From Anaerosacchariphilus polymeriproducens (GTDB lineage: Bacteria > Bacillota > Clostridia > Lachnospirales > Lachnospiraceae), in NCBI RefSeq assembly GCF_003363435.1, contig NZ_QRCT01000051.1:1-64000 (forward strand): a stretch of 64,000 nt of DNA, given 5' to 3'. Under the pieces are notes generated by a model. It was not told where the DNA came from. It did not search any database and saw only the letters and a program-made list of their open reading frames with translations. Shown here piece by piece: positions 28,001 through 32,409 of this stretch; within the stretch, counting starts at the first letter, position 1, and every line of letters begins with the position of its first letter. The position numbers were made by a program, and so were the translations under genes.

Positions 28001-28029
28001 AGTATACACGGTTTCGTTTGATATTTCAA
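28001..28029 (-). promoter_or_regulatory. Promoter of the S10 operon
   Basis: On the minus strand TTGAAA (28029-28024) and TATACT (28006-28001) with a 17-nt spacer. It is the only clear promoter between the superoperon and the candidate RNA gene upstream. Confidence 0.75.
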
Positions 28030-28088
28030 GTAGTTTTTATGTTTTTGTGTATTTTTTTTGATACAAGCCCATTTTATCAAAAATTTAA

Positions 28089-28116
28089 AAGCAGATATTC
28101 TTATGAACATCTGCTT
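28089..28116 (-). terminator. Intrinsic terminator of the candidate RNA
   Basis: AAGCAGAT (28089-28096) and ATCTGCTT (28109-28116) form an 8-bp stem; on the minus strand TTAAATTTTTG follows. It closes the candidate RNA and small peptide transcript before the S10 operon promoter. Confidence 0.7.
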
Positions 28117-28144
28117 ATCTATAATATTCCCATAAACTATTTGC

Positions 28145-28228
28145 TTAACTTTTCGTTTTTTCCTTCAACATTAATGCTAAACCAAGTAACATTATTACTC
28201 CAAATAACATCCCATATAATATAGCCAA
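28145..28228 (-). CDS. Possible 27-residue single-span membrane peptide
   Basis: A TTG at 28228 is preceded by AGGAG at 9 nt spacing and starts MAILYGMLFGVIMLLGLALM, followed by LKEKTKS and a stop at 28145. It is one hydrophobic helix of about 20 residues with a positively charged C-terminal tail, like small membrane subunits or type I toxin peptides. It lies at the 3' end of the candidate structured RNA, 29 bp before its terminator. The protein is too short to assign by similarity, and the start codon is weak. Confidence 0.4.
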   Translation of the reverse strand: MAILYGMLFGVIMLLGLALMLKEKTKS

Positions 28229-29131
28229 TTTTATACTCTCCTATTCTGTCACACTTCAATTTAACTCAACAACTAGTTTCAGCCAAATGATACCGCGCCG
28301 AATGAATCTTTGTGCATATACGCAACAGTAACGCTCACCCTCGTTTCTATTGCAAGAATTCTATTAACAAATACTCCCAACCTCAATTTGTTATTCATAT
28401 GATTTTCCGTCCGCAAACTTTTTTACGCACCAATCCGGCTGGTTTCGAATTCCAAACCTTTATTGTGCTTTAAATATGTATTATAGCAGCAAACCCAACC
28501 CCGATGACCCCTCTCGGTTTGTAAATTTGCAATTACCTTTAATCTATAATACATATTTACCCATAAACAGCACTTTCAATCTACACACATATCCGCTCTC
28601 AAATACCCTTCTTGATAGATTCTGCTACACTATATTCGCCCTGTTTTGTCCTAATCTTTAGATTAGAATAATTTCCCTTCACTCAAGCGTCCTTCTACTT
28701 CAATGGTCTCAACAGATAACGTTCCCCTCGCACTGTCTCTTTGCATCGTAAGAAACTCTGCAACCTTCATACCACCTAAGGAACTAATATAGTGTGATTT
28801 GTCCTATCAATAATTTCAATTATTTATACCCTTGCTAAATTTTATATAAATAATTACCCATCTAACTACTACTATTAACAGGAAAGCTATATTGGCTCCC
28901 AATTCCAACTGCTCCCCTATTACTTTTTGCTTACTTTACTTATGTAAGCGGTACCATCTAAACGACATCTTTCATCTTACTAACCTTAGAAACCGCCCTA
29001 GTCCCCATGGCACCATCGTTCTTGTATTAGATTGATTACTCTGCAATACACAAATACCAGATTTGCCCTTACTGTACTGCAGATTTTTCTTATTAAAATA
29101 TCCCCTCGATATTCATCTCTAATACAAGTTC

Positions 29132-29140
29132 ATTATAACA
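29132..29140 (-). promoter_or_regulatory. Extended -10 promoter of the candidate RNA
   Basis: On the minus strand TGT followed by TATAAT, a perfect extended -10 element (TGnTATAAT). No good -35 box is visible. Initiation would fall near 29125, right at the first long stem of the candidate RNA. Confidence 0.5.
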
Positions 29141-29158
29141 TCACACCAATTTAAAATT

Positions 29159-29174
29159 CCCCCACTTTAGGGGG
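29159..29174 (+). terminator. Terminator-like hairpin
   Basis: CCCCC (29159-29163) and GGGGG (29170-29174) with a 6-nt loop, followed on the plus strand by GGTATTTTTTTAATTTTT. No plus-strand gene is seen upstream, so it may isolate the methyltransferase gene from antisense transcription. Confidence 0.5.
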
Positions 29175-29513
29175 GGTATTTTTTTAATTTTTACCTATTT
29201 ACTATTATTTTTATCTTTTTTCTACAATATTGAACTATATTTGATTTTTTCAACTAAATAAAAAAACTTTTTTAAAGCATTCTTTCTATATTATATTACA
29301 TATTCTTTTCTCATTCTATTCCTATTCATTCTTTTTTTCTTTCACTACAAATGACTTTCTATATTTTTTATTATAATCTAATTTATTCTAATACCCTTTA
29401 TTATTCTTAAATTACCCACTTTATTATCTCTATATATGATGAGTTTTTAAGAAATATATAACAATTCACAAGCTATCGATTCTCAGTTTTACTTTAAAAG
29501 TATCATAATTATA
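29175..29513. other. AT-rich intergenic region
   Basis: About 340 bp of very AT-rich sequence (pyrimidine-rich on the plus strand) between the terminator-like hairpin and the methyltransferase promoter. I see no gene, repeat array or clear structure in it. Confidence 0.6.
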
Positions 29514-29541: not shown

Positions 29542-29581
29542 TCAATTCATGATTAGATTTGAAACGGAAAGGATAATAACT

Positions 29582-30442
29582 ATGTGGATTGCTGAAAATT
29601 GGAAAGATTATGAAATAATAGATACTTCAAGCGGAGAAAAACTTGAACGTTGGGGAGAATACACTCTAATACGGCCAGATCCCCAAGTCATCTGGAATAC
29701 CGTTAAAAACAACAAGAAGTGGAAACAAATTAATGGACATTACCATCGCAGTAAAAAAGGTGGCGGTGAATGGGAATTTTTTAATTTACCCAAACAATGG
29801 TCTATTCATTATAAAGATTTGATATTTCATCTGAAACCCTTTAGCTTCAAGCATACAGGGCTCTTCCCCGAACAGGCAGTGAACTGGGATTGGTTCAGCA
29901 ATAAAATCAAATTGGCTGAAAGACCTATTAAAGTATTAAACTTATTCGCCTATACCGGAGGAGCTACCTTAGCCGCTGCGAAAGCAGGTGCACATGTGAC
30001 TCATGTGGATTCTTCGAAAGGTATGGTTACCTGGGCAAAAGAAAATGCAGCCGCCTCAGGACTTAGCGATGCTCCAATCCGCTGGATCGTAGATGATTGT
30101 GTGAAATTTGTGGAAAGGGAAATTCGGCGCGGCAATCATTATGATGCTATCATAATGGATCCTCCATCTTATGGTAGAGGCCCAAAAGGGGAAATTTGGA
30201 AGATTGAAGAATCGATTCATCCATTTATTCAACTTTGCGCAAAACTTTTATCAGATAATCCGCTATTCTTTTTGGTGAATTCTTATACTACAGGATTGGC
30301 TCCAGCTGTGCTTACTTATATGCTTTCTATAGAATTGAAAAATTTTAATGGTTATGTGGAATCTGAAGAGATTGGATTGCCGGTAAGTTCAAACGGATTG
30401 GTGTTGCCTTGCGGAGCTTCGGGGCGTTGGAGCTCTAGATAA
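29582..30442 (+). CDS. Class I SAM-dependent methyltransferase (RlmI-like)
   Basis: The only confident plus-strand gene. From the ATG at 29582 (RBS AAAGGA) it has 286 residues. The C-terminal Rossmann domain has SAM-binding motif I KVLNLFAYTGGATLAAAKAGA, the acidic end of strand 2 in VTHVDSSKGMV, and a catalytic DPPSYGRGPKGE motif typical of nucleic-acid N- or C5-methyltransferases of the RlmI/RlmK group. No PUA domain is present. It probably methylates rRNA or another RNA base; the exact target is unknown. It shares a bidirectional terminator with the convergent gene at 30594. Confidence 0.85.
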   Translation: MWIAENWKDYEIIDTSSGEKLERWGEYTLIRPDPQVIWNTVKNNKKWKQINGHYHRSKKGGGEWEFFNLPKQWSIHYKDLIFHLKPFSFKHTGLFPEQAVNWDWFSNKIKLAERPIKVLNLFAYTGGATLAAAKAGAHVTHVDSSKGMVTWAKENAAASGLSDAPIRWIVDDCVKFVEREIRRGNHYDAIIMDPPSYGRGPKGEIWKIEESIHPFIQLCAKLLSDNPLFFLVNSYTTGLAPAVLTYMLSIELKNFNGYVESEEIGLPVSSNGLVLPCGASGRWSSR

Positions 30443-30593: not shown

Positions 30594-30959
30594 TTATTGT
30601 GGTCCGATATACTCTGCATCACCAAAGGCTAAAATTGGATAGAAAATCACTCCCAATAATAATAAACCAAATCCAAAAGCTATTCCTTTACCGAACGCCA
30701 TCGCAAATTTAAAAATAGTAATTATTCCAAATATGCCATTTACAAATGGAACAAATAAAATCAAGAATAACCAACCATTCCCCCAAGCGATGTCCATAAT
30801 ACAATAAAAATTATAAATTGGTATTAAACTGCCCCAGCCCGGTTTGCCAGCTTTTTCAAAAATTTTCCACATTACCACAATTCCAAGCACTGTTAATGCC
30901 AAGTAAATCATTATAAACGGTAATGTAAATAAACCTGCAATTACATCATATGAATACAT
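30594..30959 (-). CDS. DUF5684-type small membrane protein
   Basis: This 121-residue protein has about three to four hydrophobic segments. The stretch GKPGWGSLIPIYNFYCIMDIAWG in the middle, FKFAMAFGKGIAFGFGLLLLGVIFYPILAFGDAEYIGPQ at the end, matches the DUF5684 pattern found widely in Firmicutes and Bacteroidetes, often beside signal peptidase or surface protein genes. Function unknown. GAGGAGG precedes the ATG, and a perfect promoter lies at 31003-31031. Its terminator is shared with the methyltransferase. Confidence 0.8.
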   Translation of the reverse strand: MYSYDVIAGLFTLPFIMIYLALTVLGIVVMWKIFEKAGKPGWGSLIPIYNFYCIMDIAWGNGWLFLILFVPFVNGIFGIITIFKFAMAFGKGIAFGFGLLLLGVIFYPILAFGDAEYIGPQ

Positions 30960-31056: not shown

Positions 31057-32172
31057 TTAAAAGTAGGACGCGCAATTATTAATGACAATTTCTACTTCAT
31101 CATATTTCGAAGCACATGAACCTTCTAAATTGCAATCTATTACTGAATAGCAGTCAACAAACTGCATGAAACTATTACTAAATCCAACAATATTTCCTTT
31201 ATATTTGTAAATAGCTATTAATTCAAAATCCAGTGCATAATATGAATTATTTCTTACTCTCACTCCTGATTTATATATACTTCCATTATAATTGAACCAT
31301 TTATTTTCCAATGACAAGCATGTGTTTTTGCTTTCACAATTTATATAAACATCATTTACTTTAAAATTAAATCCCCATCTTACATATTTTTTTCCAATGG
31401 GATGCGCAAATGTCATATAAAAACTTTCGTTCGCTCCAATACCTTCTATGTAGTCTATATAATTTCCATATATTTTCTTACCTTTTGCATCTATATAATA
31501 TATATCTGCAAGGACGTTACGAATGGTTTTGGAACTAATATTTGTAGCTTTTATAATAATCCCGTCTGCGGTATCTTTCATATAATCAATCTTAAAATAA
31601 GATTGCCAACTTACTTTTTTCAAACGGGCCGGCTTTTTTTCTTTTCTCTCCTTTACTGTAATATTCGTTGTAAAAGTAGATTTACCTACTTTTGCACTAA
31701 GTTTTGCAATGCCTTTACCTTTTGCTTTTATTTTACCTCTTTTCACTGTCGCAACGGATCTGTTACTTGAACACCAAATTACCCTACTTGCACTTACCCC
31801 CTCTAAATTTAATTTAGTCGCTTTTCCTACTGTCAACATAGTATCTTCAAAATTAACTTTAACTTTACAAGTATACTTTCTTTTCCCTACTTTTGCTGTA
31901 ATTCTTGTTGTACCTGCTGTTTTTGCTATTACTTTCCCCCTTTTGTTTACTTGTGCCACTTTGCTGTTTGAAGAACTCCATTTTGCTTTTTTGTTACTAT
32001 TCTTCAATTTTAGGACTTGCGACTGTCCTGTTTTAAGTGTTAAGTTTTTCTTGTTCAGTTGTGTACTTGCTGCATGAACCGTAAGTGTATTGACCTCCAA
32101 CATCGTTATTGATGCACCCATAACTGCCAATACCATAACTAATACCACCATAAGTCTTTTTACATTATTCAT
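31057..32172 (-). CDS. Secreted protein with bacterial Ig-like (Big2) repeats
   Basis: The protein has 371 residues from the ATG at 32172, chosen because GGAGG lies just upstream; the longer frame is unsupported. A signal peptide occupies about residues 1-36, ending VHAAS. Two Big2-type Ig domains follow, with repeated motifs KWSSSNSKVAQVNKRGKVIA and WCSSNRSVATVKRGKIKAKG. A C-terminal beta-rich domain of about 190 residues follows, with pattern IIIKATNISSKTIRNVLADIYY resembling FxLYD-type domains. It has no LPXTG anchor or SLH domain. It is probably an extracellular adhesin-like protein; the ligand is unknown. It is a single-gene transcript. Confidence 0.82.
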   Translation of the reverse strand: MNNVKRLMVVLVMVLAVMGASITMLEVNTLTVHAASTQLNKKNLTLKTGQSQVLKLKNSNKKAKWSSSNSKVAQVNKRGKVIAKTAGTTRITAKVGKRKYTCKVKVNFEDTMLTVGKATKLNLEGVSASRVIWCSSNRSVATVKRGKIKAKGKGIAKLSAKVGKSTFTTNITVKERKEKKPARLKKVSWQSYFKIDYMKDTADGIIIKATNISSKTIRNVLADIYYIDAKGKKIYGNYIDYIEGIGANESFYMTFAHPIGKKYVRWGFNFKVNDVYINCESKNTCLSLENKWFNYNGSIYKSGVRVRNNSYYALDFELIAIYKYKGNIVGFSNSFMQFVDCYSVIDCNLEGSCASKYDEVEIVINNCASYF

Positions 32173-32409
32173 CCTAGTACCTCCTTCACTTTTCTCTGAT
32201 GTCCAACTAGTATAATTATTATACATAAAAATACTTCTTATGTAAATCGTTTTTTACCAATTTATGTCAATATTTTCTCCAATCTGCTATTTATTGCATG
32301 TATTTTGCACAATTATTTTGTATTTGTTACATTTTATTTAGCAATATGTAACATATGTTCTTTTTTTGTTAATTCCCCATTTTTTTATATTAAATTATAA
32401 AATAAAAAA

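Follow-up and report, generated by a model that had tools for sequence, protein, structure and literature searches.

In the window, the 64-kb stretch of DNA analysed here, about 1 kb without a conventional gene lies between the ribosomal-protein (S10) operon and a gene for a SAM-dependent methyltransferase (Table 1). This region, 28081-29140, holds a candidate unit of about 1,050 nt on the minus strand; the host genome comprises 50 contigs and 3.8 Mb. A sequence-only reading had proposed a large, ornate non-coding RNA at this place, and its statement that no conventional gene is present was borne out: no ORF longer than 68 aa overlaps the region (ORFs of at least 40 aa were listed), and six read-through frames compared with Pfam, PHROGs and NCBIfam gave a best E-value of only 0.071. 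One minus-strand read-through frame was also compared with plasmids, with phages and with 199 other genomes of the family, and matched none of them. The frame GGMKVAEFLTMQRD, singled out in the sequence-only reading, matched no protein family and nothing in the sampled genomes, and it falls outside the set of small ORFs considered below, which had to be Shine-Dalgarno-led and to reach 20 aa.

Among the best 80 matches of the methyltransferase, Lachnospiraceae-type names predominate, with Eubacterium oxidoreducens at the top. Beyond its gene lie minus-strand genes for a DUF5684 protein (30594-30959) and a Big_2-domain protein (31057-32226). The stretch 29187-29450, of about 260 bp, is roughly 18-24% G+C and strongly skewed, the minus strand being purine-rich, and includes imperfect tandem units of 20 bp and 11 bp.

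Table 1. Features at the locus in order of coordinate; positions are those of the window.
Feature	Position	Strand	Basis or remark
rpsJ (S10)	27769-27452	minus	
S10-Clostridia ribosomal leader RF03136	27984-27903	minus	Rfam, 88 bits; directly downstream of the region
Predicted intrinsic terminator: 12-pair hairpin 28116-28089, then T-rich TTTTAAATTTTT	28077-28116	minus	
Small ORF, TTG start, 27 aa, hydrophobic, lysine-rich tail	28228-28145	minus	Shine-Dalgarno AGGAG 28238-28242
Predicted structured RNA body, about 830 nt	28300-29128	minus	Fold with controls, inverted repeats
Predicted 16-bp perfect helix 28544-28559/28471-28486, inner stems	28471-28559	minus	Probability 0.98
Predicted central domain with a long-range closing helix of 10 bp, 28786-28795/28627-28636	28627-28795	minus	Probability 0.91; basis of model R2
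Predicted 12-bp helix 28911-28922/28876-28887, three G-U pairs, inner 5-bp stem	28876-28922	minus	Pair probability mean 0.97
Predicted 5' domain, 11-bp closing stem 29118-29128/29021-29031	29021-29128	minus	Predicted pairing; basis of model R1
Predicted extended -10 element TGTTATAAT	29140-29132	minus	Sequence
Strong terminator-like hairpin CCCCCACTTTAGGGGG, then T-run	29156-29184	plus	
SAM-dependent methyltransferase gene	29549-30442	plus	

Bracketing sites and the small ORF

The region had been described as bracketed by an extended -10 promoter and an intrinsic terminator, and both predicted elements are indeed in place. The terminator hairpin stands at the end of the structured unit, at about 28083. 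Only 3 nt separate TGTTATAAT from the first helix, and a transcript would be expected to start at about 29125-29128; the usual start, 7 nt past TGTTATAAT, would cut up to 3 bp off the closing stem. Because 9-mers of the TGTTATAAT type are found in the window at chance frequency (7 against 6.2 expected), the element lends its support by position only. The plus-strand terminator-like hairpin stands just before this minus-strand promoter-like site, with no plus-strand gene seen preceding it; this strong hairpin counts against reading the region as a minus-strand unit. A near copy, also terminator-like, occurs in the same genome at position 366060 of contig C48. A dyad at 29159-29174, considered as an operator, is better read as this plus-strand terminator. 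As to an antisense RNA that would overlap the small ORF described next, as in type I toxin-antitoxin loci, the plus strand shows a TATAAT near 28121, and no plus-strand terminator is listed before 29156.

Directly before the minus-strand terminator, within the last 150 nt of the predicted transcript, lies the 27-aa ORF. By small-ORF criteria that were fixed after the ORF had been seen, no other Shine-Dalgarno-led ORF in the transcript reaches 20 aa (such ORFs average 0.30 in shuffles), and its peptide reaches a 15-residue hydropathy mean of 2.73, a Shine-Dalgarno-led ORF with a mean above 2.2 being obtained in 1 of 300 shuffles. The combination looked for in type I toxin-antitoxin loci, a hydrophobic small ORF with a ribosome binding site, is present by the same post hoc criteria. 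The 200-nt windows holding the ORF (28100-28299 and 28150-28349) carry no fold signal; two 7-bp stems are predicted within it (p 0.81 and 0.92), and the Shine-Dalgarno bases have a probability of 0.50-0.77 of being unpaired. Homologs of the peptide were sought without success in 119 other genomes of the family (E up to 0.1) and, with low-complexity filtering and E up to 10, in plasmids and phages; its best E-value in Pfam, PHROGs and NCBIfam was 0.29. The term non-coding, used in the sequence-only reading, therefore calls for a qualification.

Predicted fold and choice of strand

The 1,048-nt minus strand folds to a predicted -263.0 kcal/mol. Sixty dinucleotide shuffles average -219.6 (sd 7.3), which gives a z-score of -5.9, and the most stable of them, at -236.4 kcal/mol, does not reach the real sequence. 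With 24 shuffles (mean -218.5, sd 6.3) z had been about -7.1, and it dropped to -5.9 with 60; a 961-nt stretch of the region gave -5.6 with 20. In 850-nt segments with 10 shuffles each, compared with control segments from the same 64-kb window, the region scored z -5.1 on the minus and -5.5 on the plus strand, the two lowest values among 42 segments (best of 40 controls, -4.45), with energy ratios to shuffles of 1.21 and 1.27 against at most 1.18 in the 40 controls. Stability above both shuffles and the rest of the window, as generally expected of a large structured non-coding RNA, is therefore observed. Perfect inverted repeats of at least 10 bp, counted with loops of up to 250, point the same way and bear out the repeat richness first noted from the sequence: the region has four, against a mean of 0.3 and a largest value of 2 in 30 dinucleotide shuffles and a mean of 0.58 over 60 tiles of the window, and tiles clear of the region hold at most 2 each. 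Pairs with a probability above 0.8 number 173 in the region; the shuffle mean is 93, the largest of 24 shuffles has 180, and one of 12 control segments exceeds the region with 177. The composition of unpaired bases did not discriminate, control segments being similar.

The fold signal is patchy. It is concentrated in 28850-29199 (200-nt windows with z -2.2 to -4.4) and in 28400-28649 (-3.2 to -3.3), the window with the terminator (28050-28249) reaches -2.7, and elsewhere values run from -2.4 to +0.7, three windows across 28100-28399 lying at about 0. For the main predicted helices, which measure 11, 11, 12, 10 and 16 bp, the mean pair probability ranges from 0.91 to 0.99. The stem of 11 bp that closes the 5' domain is exactly as first proposed, and the domain that it closes also contains a hairpin (29096-29114) and an 11-bp stem (29073-29083/29040-29050) with mean pair probabilities of 0.91-0.99. 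A helix first given as 15 bp is present and in fact measures 16 bp. A 12-nt direct repeat (92%), 28642-28653 and 28795-28806, lies 5' of each arm of the 10-bp helix on the minus strand.

Choosing between the strands is less straightforward. The purine bias noted for the minus strand is real (A 35%, G 25%, U 30%, C 10%), and the plus strand of the region also folds beyond chance (full length, z -4.3 with 60 shuffles), which counts against an RNA specific to the minus strand. In predicted stability the minus strand exceeds the plus by 106.9 kcal/mol, where shuffles average a difference of 92.8 (sd 7.4) and only 1 of 60 is as asymmetric as the region. A mismatch test was also applied. In a fold restricted to Watson-Crick pairs, mismatches at helix ends and in 1x1 loops on the minus strand comprised 16 G-U and 1 A-C, a ratio that stood out from what base composition would give. 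Shuffles, however, average 13.8:2.6 and have at most one A-C in 9 of 40 cases, so that the difference is not significant. The strand argument therefore rests on the stability asymmetry over 60 shuffles, by which the minus strand is moderately favoured over the plus.

Search for relatives and comparison with known RNAs

Conservation in relatives, the lack of which the sequence-only reading had named as evidence against itself, was not found in the genomes sampled. In overlapping genome samples that excluded the host's own genome and held no second genome of its genus, BLAST of the region returned nothing convincing in 97 relatives and no convincing homolog in 396 genomes of the family, 391 of the order or 387 of the phylum (E up to 0.0001 for the last). 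Six of the 97 relatives were matched, five of them on 28021-28077 beside the S10 promoter-like site, and two of these five matches lie just upstream of rpsJ in their own genomes. At the order level, short matches (21-65 nt, E up to 0.01) occurred in 37 other genomes; one of these, L168, was rejected as a homolog, lying almost entirely inside a 499-aa ORF. Phages and plasmids searched with the region gave nothing, exact patterns of 22 and 23 bases were absent from 84,980 species genomes and from viral contigs, respectively, and three translated-frame scans of viral contigs gave no confirmed relative.

Covariance models built from the single sequence of the 5' domain (R1) and of the central domain (R2) did no better. 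R1 matched 13 of 298 other genomes at E up to 0.1. Four of the matches (L154, L158, L160 and L161) lie inside ORFs, and the nine others lie in spacers, taken between ATG-started ORFs of at least 70 aa, the longest of which, at about 640 nt, is too short for a 1-kb RNA. Compared at E 0.001, the 13 loci showed no similarity to each other or to the window, except for one pair sharing 115 nt away from the matches. The locus L162 shares 23 nt and was set aside as a chance match of the model, although it is unusual in its own right: a long imperfect palindrome spans about 1120-1575 of it, between two genes of another family genome (G305). R2 gave one unconvincing match in 39 genomes (G071, E 0.072), and both models applied to 99 of the 100 loci L040-L139 gave only weak, unconvincing matches (L101, L068 and L074), that at L101 upstream of a 444-aa gene and that at L068 within its spacer.

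In ten relatives the methyltransferase gene is divergent from S10 and no more than 1.5 kb away (4 of 20 and 6 of 80 loci). Their spacers have no similarity to the region; the host's own spacer measures 1,780 nt, eight of theirs only about 360-660 nt, and the remaining two (974 and 1,419 nt) have other sequence inside. To judge from these spacers, the added sequence is either lineage-specific or lost in the ten relatives. As no convincing homolog was found, no covariation could be counted and the stems show no sign of selection; the conservation with covariation that generally marks large structured non-coding RNAs did not appear in the genomes sampled. The lack of a convincing homolog anywhere searched counts against a structured RNA.

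The sequence-only reading had matched the region to no known family and had likened it in size to OLE, ROOL and GOLLD. The former is confirmed, as cmscan with Rfam release 15 listed no family in either half at E up to 10; the whole region at E up to 5 yielded only a rimP leader (E 2.6), at its edge, where the plus-strand terminator stands. Covariance models of OLE, ROOL, GOLLD and HEARO had no match at gathering thresholds, at E up to 5 or, for the halves, at E up to 10, and kinship with these RNAs is accordingly not supported, whereas folding, repeats and position support a separately bracketed, structured minus-strand unit of about 1 kb. GOLLD, ROOL and OLE are large RNAs with elaborate predicted structure and unclear function, which the region resembles; many GOLLD RNAs are over 800 nt, and all three assemble with themselves (PMC12286853). 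Those classes are backed by covariation across many sequences, and the region is a single representative. ROOL and GOLLD are found in phages or prophages, often near tRNA islands (PMC12286853); here there is no tRNA gene in the 64-kb window, the neighbours are the S10 operon and the methyltransferase gene, and phage records searched with the region gave no match. The literature searched offered no named match for the region.

A parallel in distribution may be the Soda Lake RNA (smtA motif), which is over 350 nt, supported by covariation and present only in Thioalkalivibrio (PMC11109978). It is intergenic, upstream of and on the same strand as smtA, which encodes a SAM-dependent methyltransferase (PMC11109978). 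Compared by description, both are large RNA candidates beside such a gene, and the region differs in being about 1,050 nt long and divergent from its methyltransferase gene. On this analogy, the Soda Lake RNA serves as a precedent for genus-limited large RNAs.

Interpretation of the unit

The physical observation of a bracketed, well-folding stretch of about 1 kb is sound, and from it we infer transcription, functionality and role. The explanation we put ahead of the others, tentatively and at a little under an even chance, is that minus-strand 29128-28083 is a lineage-restricted structured RNA transcript that acts as RNA and perhaps has a dual function. The minus strand from about 29128 to about 28083 would form one independent transcription unit, present in the host lineage and, it would seem, absent at the same place in those relatives that were compared. 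Roughly the first 830 nt of the unit would fold into a multi-domain RNA, and the last 150 nt, less structured up to the terminator, would encode a 27-residue membrane-type peptide. The RNA would most likely act as a scaffold or as a regulator in trans, and the peptide might be a second product of the transcript or the RNA's membrane partner. A bolder form of this proposal, a new class of giant RNA, about 1 kb long, whose 3' tail would code for its membrane peptide so that an ornate RNA and its membrane anchor or partner come from one transcript, is improbable in our estimate.

One alternative is that the transcript is an mRNA with a very long structured leader. The leader would govern the 27-aa membrane peptide, which would be toxin-like or a signal, and the RNA would matter only in cis, its folding setting stability or ribosome access. 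The mRNAs of type I toxins encode small hydrophobic peptides with a charged tail on structured transcripts, and the region resembles them in its hydrophobic peptide with a charged tail and its predicted structured transcript; it differs in its far longer leader and in that no peptide homology was found. The placing of the sole Shine-Dalgarno-led ORF directly before the terminator, the hydropathy of its product, the missing fold signal around it and the predicted probabilities of unpaired Shine-Dalgarno bases all favour such an mRNA. Yet the ORF criteria were chosen post hoc, no homolog of the peptide was found in the family genomes, plasmids, phages or libraries searched, two stems are predicted inside the ORF, and about 900 nt is an extreme length for a leader; we regard this as unlikely, if worth serious thought. 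About equally unlikely is that the region is what remains of an insertion, either a mobile element or a pseudogene, in which nested inverted repeats produce the fold signal and no function is involved. That would fit a sequence added relative to ten relatives in a single lineage with conservation not found, folding beyond chance on both strands with only a moderate strand preference, and the candidate outer inverted arms, imperfect and in A+T-rich DNA, at 28202-28224/29286-29308 (78%) and 28024-28044/29256-29276 (76%). It is the non-significant mismatch test and the drop in z from -7.1 to -5.9 that led us to lower our estimate for a structured RNA and to raise that for a decayed insertion. Against decay, the six frames hold no protein remnant detectable in the three libraries, one frame is unmatched among mobile elements and other genomes as described above, the region is single-copy in the genome, long direct repeats at its edges were not found, and the terminator coincides with the end of the structured unit. 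Two specific forms were rejected: a repeated mobile element, there being only one copy in the genome, and a pseudogene of a gene upstream of S10 in relatives, as the best of 16 relatives' proteins, four of them encoded between S10 and the methyltransferase, gave E 0.06.

Membership of a known class, as a remote or truncated OLE, ROOL, GOLLD, HEARO or group II intron, would account for the comparable size and the ornate predicted fold, but with no Rfam family at E up to 10 in either half and no tRNA in the window it is most improbable. Less probable still is that the regulatory leader of the S10 operon reaches back over the region, with transcription passing through the region's terminator. The region is on the same strand and stops some 50 nt short of the S10 promoter-like site; however, the S10-Clostridia leader is complete and separate, the region lies upstream of that leader's own promoter-like site (TTGAAA-17-TATACT), and the spacers of the ten relatives, compared by eye, keep the leader without the region.

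If the lineage-restricted RNA is transcribed and takes up the predicted fold, its length would surpass that given for many GOLLD RNAs (over 800 nt; PMC12286853), and it would be limited to one lineage. This would point to RNAs of this kind arising or spreading too rarely to be caught by comparative searches, which require many relatives, and the attached small ORF would allow a direct test of cooperation between an RNA and its peptide.
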